Assembly (NCBI GenBank): GCA_022829145.1
Contig: CM040747.1
Span: forward strand, 41,038,613-41,102,612
Length of the DNA: 64,000 nucleotides
Direction of reading: 5' to 3'
Origin: Albula goreensis
Lineage: Eukaryota; Chordata; Actinopteri; Albuliformes; Albulidae
Shown here: one piece after another, positions 4,085 through 50,080 of the stretch
How the letters are laid out: the number at the start of each line of letters is the position of its first letter
How positions within the stretch are numbered: the first letter of the stretch is position 1
The notes under the pieces: generated by a model
What the model was told of the DNA's origin: nothing
What the model saw: only the letters and a program-made list of their open reading frames with translations
Databases searched by the model: none
Translations under genes and position numbers: made by a program

Positions 4085-5178
4085 GACTCAGACTGTTATC
4101 TGCTTACCATTAACATTTATCACAATGGTGCTGTCCTCATACAAGGGAATGAAGAAATTCTTTTTGATTTTGAAAATAGATTCCTCAAATTAAAAGAAAA
4201 GGTTAGAATCACAGCTCCTCCAGATAAAACGATAACATATGATCTTCCAAGCCTGTTGGTCCCCAGCACCCCAGACACAGGTCCAGCCAGCAGAGTACTG
4301 ACTCCCCCCAGCCCTCCTGCTCCCCCAGACCCACACACGGCCTGCTGCAGCTGAGAGAGAGCCTGTCCCTGATGGAGCTGGAGTTTACGCAATTCAGGGA
4401 GAGCAGCAGGACCAGCGCTACAGAGCAAGCCCAGACAGAGCAGCTGAAAGAGGAGCTCCACCAGCTCAGACAGGAGCACACGGCTGCACTGAGACAGCTG
4501 CAGGAGGAGGTGAGCTCACTGAAGGAGGAAAACAAGCAGCTACACAGGGAGTTAGCCAGGACCAGAGAGGAAACACAACAGAATGCCCCTCCTCAAGACC
4601 TGGACGTGAAACAAGCAGAGCCCAGAATACAGCAAGCCCTGGCACCACCCACGGCTTCACAAGGTCCTCCAACCCCCTCATACATAACACCCCCCTCCCC
4701 TAAAACAGTCATGCCCACCCCCTCCCCCAGACAGGCTGCACCCACCCCCCTCCCCAGAAAGACCACACCCATTCCTATCCCCATATCTAAACAAGCTACA
4801 CACACCCCCTCACCCACCTCCAGGAAAAACAGATCAGTTCCTTCCCCAAGACACATCACTCACACTACACCCTCCAATCACACTTCACCCCCTAATCACA
4901 CTACACCCTCCAATCACACTACACCCCCTAATCACACCACACCCTCCAATCACGTGGCACAACCCAAACACACTGCCCACCCCAGACACACAGTGGCCCC
5001 ATCCACAGACACTGCCTTCCTGACCGACTCCAACCGGAAGCATGTGGATATGAGACGCATGTTCCCGGAAAGGAGGTGTGTGGCTGTGGTGCCCCCGACT
5101 AAGTCTGCCCCTACAGCAGCTCTCAGACAGCATCCTGGGAAACCCTGGCACCATCCTCATCCACACCGGGACCAATGA
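4085..5178 (+). pseudogene. LINE ORF1: coiled coil plus Pro/Thr-rich region
   Basis: The frame 4372-5178 reads for 268 residues. Residues 1-70 are a Leu/Glu/Gln-rich coiled coil (QLKEELHQLRQEH, then LQEEVSSLKEENKQLHREL), consistent with the trimerising coiled coil of LINE ORF1 proteins. Residues 75-160 are Pro/Thr-rich, and residues 160-205 are NHTTPS/NHTTPP repeats. After a conserved MRRMFPERR the frame is lost, so the esterase-like domain continues in other frames. In copy 2 the coiled-coil part is missing. Confidence 0.65.
4860..4968 (+). repeat. 18-bp coding repeat (NHTTPP), about 6 units
   Basis: Units of AATCACACTACACCCTCC and close variants repeat in frame, giving six-residue NHTTPS/NHTTPP units inside the LINE ORF1 linker. 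The corresponding array in copy 2 (13441-13935) is greatly enlarged. Confidence 0.85.
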
Positions 5179-6005
5179 CCTGGCCTCTCAGTGGGAAGGG
5201 TGGCTGCCTCTGTGATCCGAGTGGCTGAGAGAGCCACACAGCGCTTCCCCAGGGCAAAGATTATTATCTCCACCCTTCTGCCCCGTGCTGACGTGTCACA
5301 GCACACCATAAACAGCATCAACAGCCAGCTGAGCAGGGGCTGCTCACAGCTGGCTAACGTACACCTCGTCCCCCACCCCAATCTGAACGCTCAACATCTA
5401 TGTGACCGAGTAAACCGAAATGAGCAGGGGGTCAAAATATTTTCCAAGTACCTGAGAGACACCGCCTTGGGCCGACAGCCAGCCAGCCCCAGCCCCATAC
5501 CCAAGCACAGCCGTCATGGGACACAGAGGATTCATGTGCCCAGGAGGACTGGCCCTACACAGCACCAGGGGAGAGGCAGGATGCCCACGCTGCCCACCCC
5601 GCTCCCACCACCCCCCCACAAACAACACATACAAAGAAAAATGGTTTGATGATGAATGTAACTTCATTTGGAAACTGTCTAATCAAAAACATCAGCCCCA
5701 AAACCCAGATTTATACTTGGAGTGCTGTGAAACATTAAACAACACAAAAATACTCAGAAACTGAAAAAAGAAAACCACATTCACAAAACTCTCAGACAAT
5801 GAAAAATCAATTGATCAAAACAAATTCTGGGAAATGTGGAATAATTTCATTTTTGGCACAAAAACCTGCATTAACTTTAAAAAATTGCTCAGGTTGGTAA
5901 CGATATATTAAAACTTGTGTATAGACATTGCACAAAACAAATTAACAAAAGAAAAAAATTGAAAGCAAAGAAAAACTTGCATTACTTGAACAATCGATCA
6001 AAGAC

Positions 6006-13440: not shown

Positions 13441-13935
13441 GAAGGAGGTCACTACACCCCTAATCACACTACACCCTCCCCAAAAACAGTCATGCCCACC
13501 CCCTCCCCAGACAGGAAACACTACACCCATATCTAAACCAATCACAGCTACTTCCCCAACCAGACCCCCTACTCCCTAATCACACTACACACCCTAATCA
13601 CACTACACCCCTAATCACACTACACCCCTAATCACACCCTCCAATCACACTACACCCCCGAATCAAACAACACCCTCCAATCACACTACACCCCCTAATC
13701 ACAAGACACCCTCCAATCACACTACACCCTCTAATCACACTACACCCTCCAATCACACTACACCCCCAATCACACGACACCCTCCAATCACACTACACCC
13801 TCTAATCACACTACACCCCCTAATCACACGACACCCTCCAATCACACTACACCCTCTAATCACACAACACCCTCCAATCACGCTACACCCTCCAATCACA
13901 CTACACCCCTAATCACACTACACGCCTCCAATCAC
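13441..13935 (+). repeat. Expanded 18-bp LINE repeat, about 28 units
   Basis: Runs of AATCACACTACACCCTCC and variants of 15-18 bp. In copy 1 the same place has about six in-frame units. Units here vary in length, so the array no longer keeps one reading frame. Confidence 0.9.
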
Positions 13936-14547
13936 ATGGCACTACCCAAACACACTGCCCACCCCAGGCACACAGTGGCCCCATCCACAGACACTGCCTT
14001 CCTGACCGACTCCAACCGGAAGCATGTGGATATGAGACGCATGTTCCCAGAAAGGAGGGTGTGTAAGCTGTGGTGCCCCACGACTAAGTCTGCCCTACAG
14101 CAGCTCTCAGACAGCATCCTGGGAAACCCTGGCACCATCATCATCCACACCGGGACCAATGACCTGGCCTCTCAGTGGGAGGGGGTGGCTGCCTCTGTGA
14201 TGGGAGTGGCTGAGAGAGCCACACAGCGCTTCCCCAGGGCAAAGATTATTATCTCCACCCTTCTGCCCCGTGCTGATGTGTCACAGCACACCATAAACAG
14301 CATCAACAGCCAGCTGAGCAGGTGCTGCTCACAGCTGGCTAACGTACACCTCGTCCACCACCCCAATCTGAACGCTCAACATCTATGTGACCTAAACACC
14401 GAAATGAGCAGGTACCTGAGAGACACTGCCTTGGGCCAACAGCCAGCCAGCCCCAGCCCCATACCCAAGCACAGCCGTCATGGGACCCAGAGGATTCATG
14501 TGCCCAGGAGGACTGGCCCACACAGCACCAGGGGGAGAGAGAGATAA
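13936..14547 (+). pseudogene. LINE ORF1 SGNH/esterase-like domain
   Basis: 203 residues open. After a basic start (MRRMFPERR) come IIIHTGTNDLA, matching the GxND block III of SGNH hydrolases, then FPRAKIIISTLLPRADVS and a C-terminal region around HLCDLN, where block V (DxxH) would be expected but is degenerate. In fish LINEs this domain sits in ORF1 and is thought to bind lipid or RNA; its activity here is doubtful. Related but diverged copies are at 5000-5560 and 58780-59100. Confidence 0.7.
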
Positions 14548-14559
14548 TTCTCCCGTCTC

Positions 14560-15122
14560 TTAAAAATATGCATATAAATCATGGCAGAGATTCTGGAGGA
14601 ATTTTTGTGTGGTACAAGGAAGAAATAGAAAATAAATTCATTGACCCAGTAAAAACAGGTGACACTGATCTTTGGTTAAATATAGATTTAAAAATCTTTC
14701 CATCTGAAAAAGATATGTACCTATGTGCAATCTACACCCCCATTGGATTCTCCCAGTTTAAATGCATCCATTTTTAATGATCTGCACACAGACATCTGCC
14801 ACTTCCAGGCCCAGGAAGTGTGCTGCTCTGTGGAGACCTAAACGCCAGGACAGGTACTCTCCTGACTTCCTCACCACTGAAGGAAACAAACACATCTTTG
14901 GCCAATCTCCTATGTACCACACTCCAATCATAAAAACCACAAACAGCCATGACAATGTAATTCATAAAAATGGTAGACAGGTAGTGTATCTCTGTCAAAC
15001 CTTGGGTCTGTATATCATTCATGGTAGGATCAGAGGGGACTCCTTTGGAAGGTTCACTTACAGCTCAGCTCTTGGGAACAGTGTGGTAGATTATGCCATT
15101 ACAGATGTGGACCCTCCTCCAT
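14560..15122 (+). pseudogene. LINE ORF2 endonuclease region
   Basis: Fragments in two frames show MYLCAIYTPIG, then LLCGDLNARTG (the APE endonuclease GDxN block), then RGDSFGRFTYSSALGNSVVD followed by YAITD, the later catalytic block. A frameshift lies near 14760. The same region recurs, truncated, at 54620-54960. Confidence 0.75.
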
Positions 15123-15829
15123 AAATGCATTCACTGTCAGGCAACAAACCTCCCTATCAGGAATTAAACAGCAAAAAGCTCTTAACTCACCTGAAATCAC
15201 TAACCTTACGAATACCTTTATTAACACACAGTACGAATCTAACAAATCAGGCCTAAATCTGGCTGTTAAAATTATTGACATATTTCATGAAGCAGCCAAA
15301 ATATCAAACCTGAAACTACACAAGAATTGTAACCCAAACAACAAACATAAAAAGAAATGGTTTGATGATGAATGTTACTTAATTCGGAAAAAGTTACAGA
15401 AACTATCCAATCAAAATATCATCAGCCCCAAAACCCAGATTTACGCTTGGAGTACTGTGAAACATTAAAACAACACACAAATTCTCTGAAACAGTAAAAA
15501 GACATTGCAAAAAACATTGAAAAATTGATCTAAACTAATTCTGGAAATGTAGAATAATTTCAGTTCGGCACAAAAACCTGCATTAACTATTAAAAATGGC
15601 TCACTTTGTGACAATATTTTGAAAACTTGCATATGGACATTGCACAAAAAGAATTAACAAAAGAACAAATTGAAATCAAAGAAACACTCACATTACTTGA
15701 ACAATCGATCAAAGACAACCAAAACCCAACTGACACACCAATCACAATGCAGGAATTAACTGAGCATCTCAACTAAAACCAAGAAAGTCTTGTGCTTTTG
15801 ACAACATATAATGAGATTTTGAAATATAG

Positions 15830-16700
15830 TAACCAGTTAATAAAAGAGGCCCTACTGAAATCATTCAGTCTATCACTAAGTACTGGCTGCTTCCTGACAC
15901 CTGGAACCAAGGGCTTATATCCCCAATTTATAAGAGTGGAGATAAATTAGACCCCAGTAATTACCAAGGCATCTGTGTAAGCAGTAATCTGGGGAAGTTA
16001 TTTTGTAGCATCCTTAATTCAAGAATTATAAACTTCCTTACCAAGCACAGTGTCTTGAGTAAGAGTCAAATTGGATTCCTCCCAAAACATCACACAAAAG
16101 ATCATATTTACACCCTATACACCTCATCGTAGATAAACATGTTCACAAATTAACAAAGGAAACATCTTTGCATGCTTTATTGACTTTAAAAAGCATTTGA
16201 TTCTATTTGGCACCAGGGATTAAATTATAAAATACTTCAAAGTGGTATTGGGGTAAAGTATATGACATCATTAGAAAACAAATTGGCAATCAAAGAACAG
16301 AATTCTTCACTCAGGGTTGTGGGGTGAGACAGGGTTGCAGCTTGAGTCCAACGTTATTTAACATTTACATTCATGAATTAACCACAATGTTGGAACATTC
16401 TGCAGCTCCTGGGCTTACTCTACATGACACAGAAATTAATTTTTATTATATGCAGATGACCTGGTTCTGCTGTCACCCACAGAACAAGGGCTACAGCAGA
16501 ACCTGGCCATCTTAGAAAAATTCTGCCAGTCCTGAGCCCTGGCAGCAAACTTAAAAAGACCAAAATAATGATATTCTAGAAAAGGCCAGGTCTCACAAAA
16601 GCAGATACAGTTTCACCTTCTGCAACACAGTACTGGAACAAACCACAAATTACACATACCTTGGTCTGAAAATCAATGCATCGGGAGCTTTAACTTAGCA
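15830..16700 (+). pseudogene. LINE ORF2 reverse transcriptase region
   Basis: Segments read YWLLPDTWNQG-like fragments, GVRQGCSLSPTLFNIYIHEL, and YADDLVLLSP at 16449-16478, the catalytic YADD motif, then NLAILEKFCQS. Stops and frameshifts are scattered through it. The block spacing matches L2/CR1-group enzymes. The exact clade needs a tree. Confidence 0.75.
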
Positions 16701-17640
16701 GTGAAAGAAAATTTTATAAAATTCAATTACAATATTAAATTTCTGGTTAAAAATAACTGACAGCATCTTACAGCCAATTGTGCTGTATTGTGCTGTGAGG
16801 TATGGGGTCCACTTAGCCATCCAGACTACTCACAATGGGACAAAAAGCCAGTGGAAATCCTGCATGCTGAATTTTACAAAAATATACTCCAGGTCCACCA
16901 AAACACACCAAACAATGCATGCTGGGCAGAATTAAGCCGTTACCCTTTGATTATTAACATTCAGAAAAGAGCATTAAAATTCTGGATTCATCTAAAAAAA
17001 AGCTAACCAAATCCCTCCAATATACCAAGAGCCTTCCTAGAATCCCAAGAGCTAAGCCAAACCAATAAAGTAGAAGTACTACCTATGACATGTTTCAGAC
17101 CAGCACTGCTTCAATTAAAATGAGCCAATTAATAAACTGAATAAAACATTCTTATTTGGAACATTGGAAGAAAATGACAAAACCACAAAACAAATTAAAT
17201 TACTACACTATGTCAAGCAGAAATTACAAACTGGCAGAATATCTCTCCACTGTCAGAGATATGAAGCAGAGACGGATCCAAACCAAATACAGACTAAGTG
17301 ATCACAGCCTGGCCATTGAAACATTGAGACACAAGCAAACCTGGCGCCCCAAAGAGGAGAGGATTTGTGATCCCAAAAGGCTGAGACAGAAAGAATGTAT
17401 CCAAAACTTCTTTTTGAATCACTCCCTGTGGAGAGACAATTACCAATCTTACTGGGTGAAGGACACACAGCCTCCCTGGCTGCTCTATATGTAGCAACCT
17501 GTCACATGTGAAGGAATGTAAAAAATGTATCTTAGTTAATACTCATTCATTGTATGCATTCATTTTTGTTCATTTTTTTCCTGTTATTAATTGTGTTAAT
17601 TGTAATTAATAACATTATTACAATAAAACTTGAAATGAGC

Positions 17641-18572: not shown

Positions 18573-18657
18573 AGAAGGAGCTGTTTAAGGTTTCTCTGTT
18601 TGGAGCCATAATCACTAACTATTTAATAAAAGTCACAAAGTACACAGCACTACTCAC

Positions 18658-18831
18658 CCCAGTGTCTGTAGTTTACAGTTTGGACTCTTCAGTCCAGCAC
18701 AGAGCAGCTTCACTCCTGAATCTCCCAGGTTATTGTAGCTGAGGTCCAGCTCTCTCACGGGTGAGTTTGATGACTGGAGAGCTGAGGCCACAATTTCACA
18801 GGACTCCTCTGTAAGACCACAGCTGCTGAGT
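18658..18831 (-). CDS. NLR leucine-rich-repeat exon, intact
   Basis: 174 nt with acceptor CTTTCTTTCAG and donor GTGAGT. It reads [19 protein letters not shown], then [19 protein letters not shown] and CKLQTLG: two LRR motifs of ribonuclease-inhibitor type. Phase and length equal those of the exon at 8216-8043, and it follows on from the NACHT exon in frame. Confidence 0.85.
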
Positions 18832-18834
18832 CTG

Positions 18835-20455
18835 AAAGAAAGAGGTGATGTGTTAATATTTAACACTTAATATTTTAAATGTAGTATTGATAGTGCTCAC
18901 TGATAAAGAGTGATAATGAGGATTGTAAGATCTACAATGCTCTGAGGAAGATGTCTGTGCTACACTCTCCAACTGCAGCACTTTACACCTGAGAATAAGA
19001 TGTCCTGCTCAAGTCTGACAGATCTACAGCTGTGGTTCTGACCCAAATAGCCCCTTTTCCTATATTCAGTTCTGTCAGAATTGGGGCTAATGGCCCAGCT
19101 ACCTTTTCCACAGTCTTTTTCAGGCTAACTCTGGGCTTTAAGCCTCACTCATGGCCCTACTCATGCCCCTGAGCCAAGTGTGGACAGCAGGGCTAAGGAT
19201 AGAGTTATCAGATCCTTTTATACTGTATTTCAGTATTAAAGCAAATTCCAGCCTTTAGAGTGAATAGTGAGTTAGCTTGACAAGTTGTGAAAAGTTTGTA
19301 TTTCCTTCCAAAGAGAGTAAAAAACCAAACATTATCACACAGATAAAGGTTCACAGGAGTAGTCACAGGAAGGCAAGGGGGTTTTTAGTTCACATCTGAG
19401 CAGCATTCCAGTGTGTCTGTTCCGATAGTGATCATTTCTCAATGACCTGTGACCAAACTTTTTGATAGTTATTGGTTTTACGAATTTTACCAAGAAACCC
19501 CAACTTAGGAACACCAAGGTCAAAACAGTGCACATCACTGAGCCTTCAGCACAAAACTAAAATCATTTTTTGATGTTTAACTATAAACAATTATGGTTCT
19601 CAGATATGAAAAGAAATGTTTACTCTCTGATACTTAACTGCCATTCTCTGAAAAAATAAAGAGAAAATAAAAAGCGATCCATATTCTTGGCTACTACAGT
19701 CTGCTTTCCCTGTTTTCAGGCATCAGTCAGTTTCAGTGCTTGTTTATAATCAGGTCTGCATTTCAGAACATTCACAGGTGCTTCTGTTCAACTTACTGGC
19801 CTGAAATTCAGAACTCAATGATTATGGTTAAAATTATAATCCCTATTATTTAGCTAAATATTGTGATTCCAATTTTTAATCACAATTATCAGTTTGATTC
19901 AGGAAACAAAATTATTTTATTGCACGTCATGCATCTTAAAACATGCTCATATTTTTTCTTTGGCTCTTGTAAATCAGTGCATTATTCATCTCTCAAAGTT
20001 GCAACAGCTACATAAGTTCATTTTCAGTTTTATTCTGTTCCTCATTTTAGAATTTAGTTGTGTTACTAGTTGTATGAATGATAATGATAAACTGGTGCCA
20101 AACCAAAGTATTTCCAAATTCTGTGTTCACTTTGTCACTTTCAGCTGGCCCTGACGTCTCCTGCTCCTGGACTGGCATCACAGTCCAGCATTTACCAGGT
20201 TCTGGGTCAATGTGTTCAGCATCCAAAGGTATCACAGTCTCCTTATCCTCAAACTCTCATAATATGCTGGATGGAAAGTGCTCAGTAATTCTTTGGAATT
20301 GAGTGATTTTTCCCAGTACCTGGAAAGCCTTTGATACTTCAGTATAGTCTGTATAAATACCCACATTTTGAAGTATGATTAAACTCTCACTGTCAATGTC
20401 ATATATCTAGCAATAAATTCATTCTGTGGCCCTGTACCACTGAATTCATTCTGCC
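18835..20455. other. Intron, no gene seen
   Basis: AT-rich intronic DNA with no conserved frame or element recognised. Confidence 0.4.
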
Positions 20456-24935: not shown

Positions 24936-26563
<1,628 letters not shown>

Positions 26564-30153: not shown

Positions 30154-32106
30154 TTGGCCTTCCTGCAGTTCCTCACTACTGGTACCAGTCTCTGATAACC
30201 TGCTGCTGATGTGTTGTACATCTTCAAGTCAAACTCATCCAGGACCTCCTCTGTCATCAGTAACACAAAGGCCAGAGCTGAGCATTGGTGAGGTTCCAGC
30301 TTTTTATCAGAAAGTCTTCCTGATCACAGGGAAGTCTGGATTTCCTCCACGAGAGAGTTGTCATTCAGTTCATTCAGACAGTGGAACAGATTGATGGTCC
30401 TCTCTGCTGAAGACTCTTCTCTGATCTTCTGCTTAATGTACTGGACTGTTTTCCTTATGCTCTCTGATCTGCTTTCTATCTGTGACAGTGGGTCTGGTGC
30501 AGGTGATCTGCTTCCTGTTTGTCTGAATAGTCTTCTGAAGAAGTCTAAGAGTGATTTGCTTCCTGTCTCTGTCGGTGGGTCTGACACAGGTGATCTGCTT
30601 CCTGTCTCTGTTGGTGGGTCTGACACAGGTGATCTACTTCCTGTCTGTGTCAATAGTTCTCCTAAGAGAGTCTGAGTGGAGTCCAGTGAGAGGCCCAGAA
30701 GGAATCGGAGGAAAAGGTCCAGGTGTCCATTCTTACTCTGTAAGGCCTGATCCACTGCACTCCTGTGTACCTCAGACAGCTGCATTCTGTCAGTTTTAGG
30801 TCTTGACTCTTCTGGTCTGAGGACATTTCTGTTCTCATTTACACATGAATGAAACACAAACAAGGCAGCCAGAAACTCCTGAATGCTCAGATGCACAAAG
30901 CAGTAGACTTTCTCCTGATGCAACCCAGACTCCTCTTTAAAGATTTCTGTGCACACCCCAGAGTACACTGAAGCTTCACTGACATCAATGCCACTCTCTC
31001 TCAGGTCCTCTTCATAGAATATCAGATTGCCCTTTTCCAGCTGTAGAAAAGCCAGCTTCCCCAGTTTCAGGATCATTTCTGAATCTGATGCTGAGATCTT
31101 CTTTGGGTTTGTCTCATTGGTGCCATGATACTTCTGATTCTTCACACTGGTCTGAATGAGCAGGAAGTGTGTGTACATTTCAGTCAGAGTTCTGGGCAGT
31201 TCTCCACTGTCTGCTTTACCCAACAATGTCTCCAGAACTGTAGCAGAAATCCAGCAGAAGACTGGAATGTGACACATGATGTAGAGACTCCTGGATGACT
31301 TTATGTGTGAGATAATTCTGCTGGCCAGGTTCTGATCTCTGATTCTCTTCCTGAAGTACTCCTCCTTCTGTGGGTCATTGAACCCTCGTACCTCTGTCAC
31401 CTGGTGGACACACTCAGGAGGGATCTGATTGGCTGCTGCTGGTCGGGAGGTGATCCAGAGGAGAGCAGATGGAAGCAGATTCCCTTAATGAGGTTGGTCA
31501 GCAGCACGTCCACTGATGCTGACTCTGTTACATCACAGCAGATCTCATTGTTCTGGAAATCTAGAGGAAGTCGACACTCATCCAGACCATCAAAGATGAA
31601 CACAACTTTGACTTCATCATGTTCAACACTTTCAATCTCTTTCAGCTGTGGAAAGTAGTGCTTGAGGAGTTGCATCAGACTGAATTCTCTCTCCTTCTTT
31701 AAGTTCAGGTCTCGGAAAGGAAGCGTGAAGATTAAATTAATGTCCTGATTGGCTTTTCCTTCTGCCCAGTCCAGAATGAACTTCTGCACAGAGACAGTTT
31801 TCCCAATGCCAGCGATGCCCTTTGTAAGCACAGTTCTGATGTGTTTCTCCTGTCCAGGTAAAGGTTTAAAGATGTCATTGCAGAGGATTGTAGTCTCCTG
31901 TGTGGTTTGTCTCTTGGATGCTGCCTCAATCTGTATGACCTCATGTTCATTATTGATCCCCCCACCTCCCCCCTCTGTGATGTAGAGCTCTGTATAGATC
32001 TCATTGAGGAGGGTTGGGTGGCCCTGCTGTACCAAACCTTCAAATATGCGTTCAAACTTCTTCTTCAGATCAGATTTCAGTGTCTGTTGGGCTCTTGTGA
32101 GTTTTT
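30154..32106 (-). pseudogene. NLR FISNA-NACHT exon, disrupted
   Basis: A single exon of 1953 nt with acceptor CCTCTTCTCAG and donor GTGAGT, as in other fish NLRs. The FISNA segment comes first ([26 protein letters not shown]), then NACHT with Walker A GIAGIGKT, Walker [12 protein letters not shown], and the winged-helix and helical regions ending CRKAK. Two faults are visible: a 1-nt loss near 31481-31484 just after NLIKG, which moves the downstream reading into another frame, and a TGA at about 30326-30324 where the family normally continues. The rest, about 600 residues over both frames, is well preserved, so decay is recent or the faults are assembly errors. Confidence 0.9.
30530..30655 (-). 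repeat. In-frame 39-bp repeat in NLR exon
   Basis: Inside the NACHT exon, 13-residue units [13 protein letters not shown] occur twice in full, with a third partial unit (TGSKS) and a related [13 protein letters not shown] further on. They sit in the linker between the winged-helix region and the helices that precede the LRRs. The units are multiples of three and keep the frame. Confidence 0.85.
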
Positions 32107-33072: not shown

Positions 33073-33313
33073 TCTTCTGCTCATCTCTCTCCAGTGAGTC
33101 AGCAGGATCCTTCTGCTTTATGGTCCTCAGGATGTGAAGTGTGATCTTCAGAGATCTCTCACTGCCACAGGTCTCCAGCATCTTCTCAACTACATGCAGG
33201 GCCTCAAGGTCCTCCTGTTGTCTCACAGTGCATTCTGGGTAATACTGACTCAGATGGCTCTGAAACTGTTTCAACTCCTCCTTCTTCAACTTCATCAAAG
33301 TGTGCTGGAGAGA
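33073..33313 (-). CDS. NLR pyrin-like death-fold exon
   Basis: 241 nt with acceptor TTTATTTCAG and donor GTAAGA. It reads LMKLKKEELKQFQSHLSQYY, then EDLEALHVVEKMLETCG and LKITLHILRTIKQKDPADSL. The pattern L..EELK.F...L and the closing ITLHILR.I...D.A..L match the pyrin (PYD) domains of fish NLRs, which recruit ASC-type adaptors. The exon enters in phase 0 and leaves in phase 1, agreeing with its neighbours. The intron just upstream of its acceptor is a 1.2-kb minisatellite built from this very junction. Confidence 0.8.
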
Positions 33314-34540
33314 CTGAAATAAACACATGAAGAGGTGTGCTGTATCAGAGAGACTGAAATAAACACATGAAGAGGTGTGCTGTATCACAGTGACTGAAAT
33401 AAACACATGAAGAGGTGTGCTGTGTCAGAGAGACTGAAATAAACACATGAAGAGGTGTGCTGTATCAGAGAGGCTGAAATAAACACATGAAGAGGTGTGC
33501 TGTATCAGAGAGGCTGAAATAAACACATGAAGAGGTGTGCTGTATCAGAGAGACTGAAATAAACACATGAAGAGGAGTGCTGTATCAGAGAGACTGAAAT
33601 AAACACATGAAGAGGTGTGCTGTATCAGAGAGACTGAAATAAACACATGAAGAGGTGTGCTGTATCAGAGAGACTGAAATAAACACATGAAGAGGTGTGC
33701 TGTATCAGAGAGACTGAAATAAACACATGAAGAAGTGTGCTGTATCAGGGAGACTGAAATAAACACATGAAGAGGTGTGCTGCATCAGAGAGACTGAAAT
33801 AAACACATGAAGAGGTGTGCTGTATCAGAGAGACTGAAATAGGCACATGAAGAGGTGTGCTGTATCAGAGTGACTGAAATAAGCACATGAAGAGGTGTGC
33901 TGTATCAGAGAGACTGAAATAAACACTTGAAGAGGTGTGCTGCATCAGAGAGACTGAAATAAACACATGAAGAGGTGTGCTGTATCAGAGAGGCTGAAAT
34001 AAACACATGAAGAAGTGTGCTGTATAAGAGAGACTGAAATAAACACATGTAGAGGTGTGCTGTATAAGAGAGACTGAAATAAACACATGAAGAGGTGTGC
34101 TGTATCAGAGTGACTGAAATAAGCACATGAAGAGGTGTGCTGTATCAGAGACTTAAATAAACACATGAAGAGGTGTGCTGTATCAGAGAGACTGAAATAA
34201 ACACATGAAGAGGTGTGCTGTATCAGAAAGACTGAAATAAACACATGAAGAGGTGTGCTGTATCAGAGAGACTGAAATAAACACATGAAGAGGTGTGCTG
34301 TATCAGAAAGACTGAAATAAACACATGAAGAGGTGTTCTGTATCAGAGAGACTGAAATAAACACATGAAGAGGTGTGCTGTATCAGAGTGACTGAAATAA
34401 ACACATGAAGAGGTGTGCTGTATCAGAGAGACTGAAATAAACACATGAAGAGGTGTGCTGTATCAGAGAGACTGAAATAAACACATGAAGAGGTGTGCTG
34501 TATCACAGTGACTGAAATAAACACATAAAGAGGTGTGCGA
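33305..34540. repeat. 40-bp minisatellite spanning a splice acceptor, about 31 units
   Basis: Unit AGAGACTGAAATAAACACAT, then GAAGAGGTGTGCTGTATCAG, 40 bp, very uniform, with one 36-bp unit near 34141. On the minus strand each unit contains TTTATTTCAG followed by TCTCTC and CAGCACAC, which is the splice acceptor and the first coding bases of the exon at 33313. The last unit merges with the real junction. Confidence 0.97.
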
Positions 34541-36189: not shown

Positions 36190-36277
36190 CTTTTTTGTGG
36201 GGTTTACATCCATACACTGCTCTCTCCTCTCTGGACTCTTCTGTTCCAGACAGCTGGACTCTGCTGATTGCTGGACC
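36190..36277 (-). CDS. NLR N-terminal linker exon, 88 nt
   Basis: Acceptor ACTTTGCAG and a weak donor GTGTGA. It reads VQQSAESSCLEQKSPERRE and ends DVNPTKK in phase 0, matching the phase-0 entry of the pyrin-like exon. It starts with the same GGTCCAG as the two 111-nt exons upstream, so it looks like a diverged relative of them. Confidence 0.6.
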
Positions 36278-36479: not shown

Positions 36480-36960
36480 CTTTCCTTTGCTTAAGTCAAT
36501 GGTGTGCACAACTTGTTTCAGATCTAACCATTTGTGGAAGACTGGTGCAACAGTCTAACAAAGTTTTCAATCTTTCAATATGTGCACAATTTAGAACTTG
36601 ATGACACATTCAGTGAATATTTGTCATGCAGTAAAACTAAGCTTTTTTAAGGCTTGAGCCTTGGACCCCCTGCCAGGCCCAGTGCAGCCTTCAACCCCCC
36701 AGCTGTGCCCCTGCCCCACCTACACCAGACTGTGTCCAGTGAGAGTGAGGTACAATGAAAAAGTAGTGTAAACAATATCATCTTTACTTACCTTGGATCA
36801 GCTGTGGATTCCCCTATGAATTGGATAGGGGGATCCATTGACTCGTCACTCTTCAATGATATCCAGCTGGGTACAGGTGACCCTGCTCTCTCCACCTGGA
36901 CCCTGTGATCAAAACATGGAGACAGAGCTTCCAGTTAACCTCATCCTCTTACTGCAGCTC
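36480..36960. repeat. Exon-bearing tandem duplication, proximal copy
   Basis: About 480 bp including the 111-nt exon at 36792-36902 is repeated at about 37500-37985, including intron stretches such as TTTTTTAAGGCTTGAGCCTT. This is a tandem duplication of an exon with its flanks. Confidence 0.9.
36792..36902 (-). CDS. NLR repeated N-terminal exon, copy 2
   Basis: 111 nt, acceptor TTTTGATCACAG and donor GTAAGT. It reads VQVERAGSPVPSWISLKSDE and then SMDPPIQFIGES. Short exons of this PVPS.(V/I)S.KSD.SMD type are repeated at the N terminus of many fish NLRs; their role is unknown. Entry phase 1 and exit phase 2 make the exon symmetric, so duplication keeps the frame. Confidence 0.85.
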
Positions 36961-37330
36961 TAACTCACAGCACATGGAGACAGAGCTTCCAGTTCACCTC
37001 ATCCTCTTACTGCAGCTCTAACTCACAGCACATGGAGACAGAGCTTCCAGTTAACCTCATCCTCTTACTGCAGCTCTAACTCACAGCACATGGAGACAGA
37101 GCTTCCAGTTCACCTCATCCTCTTACTGCAGCTCTAACTCACAGCACATGGAGACAGAGCTTCCAGTTAACCTCATGCTCTTACTGCAGCTCTAACTCAC
37201 AGCACATGGAGACAGAGCTTCCAGTTAACCTCATCCTCTTACTGCAGCTCTAACTCACAGCACATGGAGACAGAGCTTCCAGTTAACCTCATCCTCTTAC
37301 TGCAGCTCTAACTCACAGCACATGGAGATA
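36917..37330. repeat. 58-bp minisatellite, about 7 units
   Basis: Unit TGGAGACAGAGCTTCCAGTT plus AACCTCATCCTCTTACTGCA plus GCTCTAACTCACAGCACA. It starts about 15 bp from the acceptor of the exon at 36902. The paralogous place after the other exon copy (37929-38035) holds fewer than two units. On the minus strand each unit contains TGTGAGTT, a donor-like motif. Confidence 0.95.
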
Positions 37331-37807: not shown

Positions 37808-37918
37808 CTTGGCTCAGCGGTGGATTCCCCTCTGAATTGGATAGGGGGATCCATTGACTCGTCACTCTTCATCGATATACAGCTGGGTACAGGTGACCCT
37901 GCTCTCTCTGCCTGGACC
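37808..37918 (-). CDS. NLR repeated N-terminal exon, copy 1
   Basis: 111 nt, acceptor TTTTGATGACAG and donor GTAAGT. It reads VQAERAGSPVPSCISMKSDE and then SMDPPIQFRGES, differing at a few residues from the 36902 exon. It is spliced in phase from the start exon at 38082. Confidence 0.85.
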
Positions 37919-38081
37919 CTGTCATCAAAACATGGAGCTTCCAGTTAACCTCATCCTCTCACTGCAGCTCTAACTCACAGCACATGGAGACAGAGCTTCC
38001 AGTTAACCTTATCCTCTTACTGTAGCTGTAACTAATTTGTAATGTATTAATTAAAGTCCAATCTGTTCCATTTATTCATAC

Positions 38082-38140
38082 CTCTTGCTTTTAGGGCTAG
38101 AGGTTCCAGCGCTCCTCTCAGGCTCCTCAGAGAGACTCAT
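38082..38140 (-). CDS. NLR start exon
   Basis: ATG at 38140 opens MSLSEEPERSAGTSSPKSK and the exon ends at donor GTATGA, leaving two bases that join GG of the next exon to give R then VQ. An MSLSEE-type start is typical of fish NLRs. The ATG has purines around it and no upstream ATG in the same exon was considered. The promoter should lie just above 38.2 kb, but I could not define it. Confidence 0.7.
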
Positions 38141-49495: not shown

Positions 49496-50052
49496 ATGGC
49501 AACAGAACCCACAACAACAATGACTTTTATCACCATCTTCATCTGGGCACTCGTTTTCAGCATTCAGGGTGAGATTCACAAAAAAATATTTGATTAAAAT
49601 GAAAAAAATCATATCTATTTAAAGGGAAGTATATGGCTGAAATTAACTGTATGAAATAACTGTCAGGGCAATGGTGTGACATTGTAATATGCCAATAGAA
49701 CATTTTAATATTAATTTTTTATTCTTCTTTTCAGAATGCACAGGACAGGTGACTGTGACTCAGACTCCTTCTAGTAAATCTGCTCTCATAGGAGACACTG
49801 TCACCCTGAGCTGTAGAACCAGCACTGCTGTGCATGGCAACAACCAGCTCACCTGGTACCAGCAGAAACCTGGAGAAGCTCCTAAACTCCTGATAAAGTT
49901 GGCAAATCAGCGTGTCTCGGGGATTCCTGATCGATTCAGTGGCAGTGGATCTGGGACTGACTTCACTCTGACCATCAGTGGAGTCCAGGCTGAAGATGCA
50001 GGAGATTACTACTGTCAGAGTTTACACTACATCAGCAGTAGCTATGTGTTCA
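49496..50052 (+). CDS. Ig light-chain V segment 1 (kappa-like), open frame
   Basis: The leader exon 49496-49568 starts [19 protein letters not shown] (a second ATG at residue 9 could also serve); donor GTGAGA. The V exon 49735-50052 follows acceptor CTTCTTTTCAG and reads [13 protein letters not shown], then [10 protein letters not shown] (first Cys), [36 protein letters not shown] and [10 protein letters not shown] (second Cys). Both cysteines and the core Trp are present with no stop. The heptamer of its recombination signal is altered, so use in rearrangement is uncertain. It encodes the variable domain of an antibody light chain after joining to J and C. Confidence 0.92.
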
Positions 50053-50080
50053 CGCAGTGATAGAGAGCCGTACAAAAACC
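50053..50080 (+). other. V1 recombination signal (12-spacer), altered heptamer
   Basis: CGCAGTG, 12-bp spacer, nonamer ACAAAAACC. The other three V segments here have CACAGTG. A change at the second base of the essential CAC is expected to hurt RAG cutting. The shifted reading CACGCAG would give a 14-bp spacer. Confidence 0.85.

Follow-up and report, generated by a model that had tools for sequence, protein, structure and literature searches.

Tandem repeats that span an intron–exon boundary are known from lancelets, in which these so-called 'mirage' minisatellites have been described for Adh3, the globin genes BflGb6 and BflGb9, TnC and PGBD5, and in which splicing is reported to be regular despite the presence of splice signals in the copies (PMC3087553 and PMC3902484, in the passages devoted to these repeats). 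In human genes, internal tandem repeats have units of around 30 bp on average, according to the sections of PMC2812944 that deal with them. The array analysed here, located in a window of 64,000 nucleotides (the whole stretch of DNA under analysis), is probably a minisatellite of the mirage type, that is, a tandem repeat of an intron–exon boundary. The repeat abuts such a boundary and has the real junction as its end copy, its copies carry splice signals, and its length is unstable, with 3–31 units when loci are compared with one another.

In the window, the array occupies 33314..34538 on the minus strand and consists of 31 acceptor copies of a 40-nt unit, TCTCTCTGATACAGCACACCTCTTCATGTGTTTATTTCAG, as established by TRF and direct count. 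TRF reports a period of 40, 30.8 copies, 95% matches and a score of 2238 at 33308–34538, and the minus strand harbors 31 TTTATTTCAG-like acceptors, spaced by 40 nt in 29 of 30 cases and by 38 nt in the other. AG is found at the end of all 31 units (30 CAG and one AAG, at 34152), and the last copy ends at 33314, directly adjoining the PYRIN exon. The sequence-only reading of this DNA had proposed a minisatellite of about 31 splice-acceptor copies whose last unit is the real acceptor, and both statements are confirmed by these 31 near-identical 3′ splice sites. Each unit can be read as CTGAT, then a tract consisting mostly of pyrimidines, then CAG, with the A of CTGAT located 31 nt upstream of the CAG end; CTGAT is a branch-point-like motif, and may be used as such. 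It had also been claimed that the units copy the first coding bases of the exon. CAG is indeed followed by TCTCTC in the unit as well as in the exon, but the wider similarity between them stands up less well. Depending on the unit variants and exons tested, 22, 79, 20 or 9 per 1000 shuffled units were as similar to the exon, namely 22 for the gapped unit against the window PYRIN exon, 79 for the gapped unit against the family majority exon, in which CAGCGCAC stands in place of CAGCACAC, and 9 (ungapped) for the unit variant TCACTCTGAT, which matches CACTCTGAT farther inside the majority exon. The exon-derived part of the 40-nt unit is short and marginally significant.

The window gene is a fish FISNA-NACHT (NLR-C) gene encoded on the minus strand, as are all the exons given here. 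Its probable first coding exon, containing the ATG, lies at 38082..38140, as judged from the frame, and is followed by two N-terminal repeat-peptide exons of 111 nt, exon 2 (37808..37918) and exon 3 (36792..36902), whose borders were taken from the sequence and whose repeat peptides were recognised by eye. Exon 4 (36190..36277, 88 nt) ends with AAAAAG/gtgtga in phase 0, and the PYRIN-domain exon (33073..33313, 241 nt; PF02758, E 8.6e-13) has a phase-0 entry and the donor GTAAGA. The array is placed between these two exons, its last unit providing the PYRIN exon's own acceptor. FISNA and NACHT share a single large exon (30154..32106, borders by eye; PF14484, E 1.1e-32; PF05729, E 6.6e-20), which is frame-broken in the window copy, and an LRR exon at 18654..18866 (PF13516, E 2.1e-07) probably belongs to the same array-bearing NLR gene. 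The window shows the fish NLR-C layout, with the PYD on a separate exon, an LRR exon and repeat-peptide exons. The reading frame of the window NACHT exon changes near 31480, an alteration also present in loci L026 and L035, and there is an in-frame TGA at 30324–30326; therefore, the window's own gene copy is probably a pseudogene. The same exon contains a 39-nt coding repeat with a 13-residue unit at 30551–30651 (minus strand), for which a strict pattern finds three matches in the window copy and 0–1 in each of the 19 others, one stretch being without this exon.

Other repeats and elements surround this gene. A 58-nt minisatellite of 7.2 copies, detected by TRF at 36914..37328 on the minus strand, ends just before the acceptor of exon 3 and repeats GGTTAAC, which is branch-point-like by eye, while AG is not repeated. 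About two copies of it also adjoin the acceptor of exon 2, at about 37922–38040 (minus strand), and matches to it, up to 26, occur in 15 of 20 stretches, the window included, zeros being possibly missed arrays because of cut stretches. Between the LRR and NACHT exons there is a Tc1-like transposase remnant (25257–26149, plus strand; Pfam match at 25376–25714). Two related element copies with common protein stretches, at 4243–5649 and 13574–17494 (plus strand), carry an 18-nt coding minisatellite that encodes NHTTPS repeats, and the second of them has a weak match to GDSL lipases that falls short of Pfam's cut-off. A germline immunoglobulin light-chain-like V exon, with a V-set match, is located at 49735–50060 (plus strand), followed by CGCAGTG, 12 nt and ACAAAAACC, by eye a 12-type recombination signal.

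The distribution of the array was followed in the assembly from which the window comes (932 Mb in 208 contigs), where a query made of one unit joined to the exon gave 144 candidates. The 40 matches that were scored are 94–100% identical along the entire query or close to it, and 39 of them are located on contigs C7 (36.3–41.6 Mb) and C8 (36.0–40.3 Mb). Among the best 20 of these 40 (L021–L040, about 10 kb each, L021 being the window's own locus), the array abuts the PYRIN exon in every case, i.e., in the window and 19 paralogs; as the query itself held one unit, 'all 20' speaks for near relatives. Unit numbers are 3, 4, 5, 6, 6, 7, 8, 8, 9, 12, 17, 17, 18, 18, 18, 20, 21, 23, 24 and 31 (median 14.5), the window having the longest array, so that the variation in copy number anticipated earlier is found across paralogs. 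AG ends 268 of the 275 units, a distinct 36-nt first unit is present in 14 of the 20 loci, and the plain means of unit differences are 2.41 within arrays and 2.97 between arrays. A PYRIN-family search gave 186 candidates, and 20 short stretches (L049–L068) were hand-picked from the 150 matches listed, mostly to cover other contigs, L066 and L068 lying inside the C8 and C7 clusters, respectively; L061, an unrelated PYRIN exon, was dropped, leaving 19 further members. At least one extra upstream copy is present in 15 of them, two of which (L063 and L067) have lost AG in the upstream copies. No extra copy was accepted within about 330 nt in L050, L053, L064 and L065; a match in L053, 280 nt off and without AG, was not counted, and L065 has, by eye, a possible degenerate second copy. 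The unit is absent from the eight best PYRIN matches, which belong to other genes. From this spread over near and further members, we infer that the initial duplication dates far back in the history of this NLR family and that long arrays represent later growth.

Most of the examined array-bearing genes appear intact over their PYRIN and NACHT exons, as suggested by open PYRIN exons, open NACHT exons and dN below dS. The PYRIN exon is open in 19 of 20 loci, among which dN and dS have means of 0.047 and 0.068. In comparison with these 20, 15 of the 19 further members have a mean dN of 0.06–0.10 and a mean dS of 0.10–0.31, those outside this range being L063 (dN 0.13, dS 0.36), L064 (0.34, 0.52), L065 (0.62, 0.59) and L066 (0.61, 0.57), although the values for L065 and L066 probably reflect indels. 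The NACHT exon is open to its end, or nearly so, in 13 of 19 loci, the stretch of L022 stopping short of this exon. Both exons are open in 12 loci, as L024, with an open NACHT exon, has a stop in PYRIN.

The fate of transcripts spliced to an upstream unit depends on the frame set by exon 4. This exon was found in 18 of the 20 loci, the window included, and in each of these it is open, with an identical phase and the identical donor AAAAAG/gtgtga; AG precedes it in 17, L027 being the one without. Its mean p-distance among loci is 0.04, this being the only distance used, because ungapped distances over its 88-nt flanks are inflated by indels. As the phase is the same in 18/18 loci, any acceptor joined to exon 4 would be read from its first base. 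When the window is read in this phase, 27 of the 30 upstream acceptors give two codons and then TGA, and the other three stop after 42, 42 and 68 codons, so that only the last unit reads into PYRIN. The 248 upstream AG acceptors of the 20 loci behave similarly: 231 stop within four codons, 15 stop later, and two, one in L022 and one in L031, reach PYRIN. TGA had a one-in-three chance of falling in the entry phase. The open stretch pointed out near 34244–33945 exists, as an ORF at 33945–34262, but it never reaches PYRIN in the exon-4 phase, being entered only through the AAG acceptor (first exonic base 34151) and meeting a stop after 68 codons. Likewise, the frame returns at each third unit (120 nt), as had been calculated, but this is of no help, since with a period of 40 nt TGA recurs in all frames within three units.

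It has also to be explained how one acceptor could prevail over its copies. Acceptor scores, calculated with rounded weights, are equal for the last and the internal units (median 3.87 each in the 20 loci), and a stronger last acceptor was rejected, as the last unit exceeds the penultimate one in four of the 20 loci and ties with it in 12. Exon definition favours the site that gives the shortest exon, and on this basis the last acceptor would be favoured, the exon between paired sites having 241 nt instead of 281, 321 and more. Folding of four units gives a z of −3.63. The predicted unpaired state of AG has a median of 0.00 in internal units (n = 248) and of 0.13 in last units of the 20 loci, against 0.41 for 200 random AGs, and in 20/20 loci the last AG has a higher predicted openness than the median of the internal AGs, because internal CAGs would pair with the CUGA of the following unit and TGATA is missing from the true exon. 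The resulting stem, UGUGUU/AGCACA plus UCAG/CUGA, is predicted to be stable. The last AG also exceeds the median internal AG in predicted openness in 8 of the 10 further members that have internal values, the exceptions being L058 and L066; the penultimate AG of the further members is often fairly open. The branch-point-like A is predicted to be as closed in the last unit (0.03) as in internal ones (0.02), and the NACHT acceptor, a real acceptor of the same gene, is also predicted to be buried (0.02). A hairpin maintained by selection was rejected. No covariation was found over 235 junctions, where 0.9668 of the stem cells are paired versus 0.9667 with shuffled partners; of 123 substitutions in the stem, 40 preserve pairing, versus 40.5 expected, stem and loop evolving alike; and 32 of 400 shuffled units bury AG equally deep. 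The array fold is a physical possibility suggested by modelling and no selected device, and masking by hairpins lends weak support to the use of the last site. How RNA structure can mask splice signals is treated in the pertinent part of a review (PMC11802352).

Substitutions within units are unevenly distributed. They were counted in 267 non-terminal units (235 from the 20 loci and 32 from other members), after removal of the two end units of every array and of any unit more than 12 edits from the consensus. CAG carries 15 substitutions, whereas 33.7 are expected from the other C, A and G positions, and none of 280 matched triples is as low. If each substitution is counted once per locus, the numbers are 14 versus 23.3 (2/280 triples as low). 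The 20 loci alone give 11 versus 25.0 (3/280), and a weak result of 10 versus 15.5 (25/280) once per locus. By eye, the same counts reveal no clear depletion at CTGAT or TGA. The depletion of CAG may be due to the use of internal sites, to the fact that any unit can become the last one upon contraction, or to a bias from anchoring the units on TTTATTTCAG.

The model we favour, and hold to be probable, proposes that an ancestor of this NLR family underwent tandem duplication of a short piece from the 3′ end of the intron preceding the PYRIN exon, and that copy number would have drifted since then through ordinary repeat turnover as the genes multiplied, both steps being suggested by the distribution. 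Splicing would most likely use mainly the last acceptor, favoured by the shortest exon and perhaps also by an AG less buried in predicted hairpins, and the use of an upstream unit, wherever it took place, would almost always lead to an immediate stop codon, as computed from the frame. The array would then be tolerated as a by-product whose cost, in the form of non-productive splicing, would be small at most; the equal evolution of stem and loop, free of covariation, is consistent with this. A pure passenger would not be expected to show the lower substitution of CAG seen in non-terminal units. The sequence-only reading had raised a length-variable splice regulator or a decoy array, either of which the array may be. 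One proposal is that the units act as poison acceptors, whose internal use would depend on copy number and would direct part of the transcripts into nonsense-mediated decay or into a truncated N-terminal product devoid of PYRIN, tuning the dose of the receptor. The stops within four codons of 231 of the 248 internal acceptors, the equality of their scores with that of the real one and the roughly two-fold depletion of CAG substitutions all agree with such tuning; however, internal AGs are predicted to be buried, TGA has no clear depletion by eye, the CAG depletion is weak once per locus in the 20 loci alone and can also be explained by contraction or anchoring, and array length shows no difference between the 13 loci with an open and the six with a broken NACHT exon (medians 12 and 14, P = 0.31). 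We regard this tuning as unlikely, and slightly more doubtful still is the extended idea that the share of pre-mRNA sent to immediate stops scales with unit number, giving each paralog a heritable, fast-mutating set-point of expression.

It is very unlikely that the array acts as an acceptor enhancer, in which the multiple branch-point and pyrimidine copies would recruit splicing factors for the use of the last AG. CTGAT and the tract are indeed present in the units, and the 58-nt array that precedes exons 2 and 3 contains copies of a branch-point-like motif but none of AG, but CTGAT positions have no clear depletion by eye and the four members without a recognised extra copy exist. Slightly less credit still can be given to the array as a recombination substrate that shuffles exons between the N-terminal and the PYRIN/NACHT part, even if homologous arrays occur on several contigs and the N-termini of zebrafish NLRs are described as shuffled in the section of PMC4852459 on this subject. 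Distances in the 300 nt to the left and to the right of the array agree in 14 loci (Mantel r = 0.50, P = 0.0055), and the outer neighbouring segments are those that disagree (r −0.05 and −0.15), though these align poorly (mean distances 0.30 and 0.17); as the Mantel tests place no breaks at the array, a recombination hot spot was rejected. The sequence-only reading had further suggested that upstream units could extend the PYRIN domain with repeat peptides. Despite the open stretch inside the array and the two acceptors of 248 that read through, this was not borne out: none of the 30 upstream units of the window does so and 246 of the 248 stop overall, so that protein extension, rejected by the frame that exon 4 fixes, is nearly excluded and extremely improbable as an explanation of the array, provided that transcripts do not skip exon 4 or include an exon with a different phase.

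Within a single genome, related genes form a natural series that begins with members having no recognised extra copy and goes up to 30 such copies. The examined loci share the upstream exon and the entry frame, and splicing to the wrong unit would nearly always be recognisable by the stop codon that follows. To our knowledge, the choice among identical 3′ splice sites has mostly been studied with few engineered sites.

The likeness to the lancelet mirages, as characterized in the parts of PMC3087553 and PMC3902484 that concern them, lies in the tandem repetition of a boundary, the splice signals in the copies, the variable copy number and perhaps a diverged edge unit, for which the distinct first unit is a candidate here. 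Unlike them, the present arrays belong to a fish, are found in many members of one gene family and reach 31 copies; the unit has 40 nt, with a branch-point-like motif, tract and AG, whereas the passages on lancelet BflGb6 give units of 150–160 bp in 3 and 6 copies, and its exonic part is short and weakly supported in comparison. Human segmental-duplication genes also have minisatellites that vary among recent paralogs, some of them at exon–intron boundaries, but, in the relevant sections of PMC2812944, those repeats are kept in exons or yield novel introns, whereas here they are intronic and read-through is blocked. Tandem acceptors of the NAGNAG type resemble the array in that several AGs compete for one exon (PMC2875228), but here neighbouring copies are spaced by 40 nt, and every copy brings along a branch-point-like motif. 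Zebrafish NLR-C/NLR-B30.2 genes share the repeat-peptide, PYD, FISNA-NACHT and LRR exons (PMC4852459 and PMC11192531, in their accounts of gene structure); the word 'minisatellite' is absent from the main texts of both papers, and no comparable array was found in portions that cover these genes. No vertebrate family of mirages was found in the literature on minisatellites at splice acceptors, on mirages and on fish NLRs, at the level, largely, of titles and abstracts. The comparison suggests that a boundary minisatellite of the kind described in lancelets can spread together with an expanding vertebrate immune gene family.
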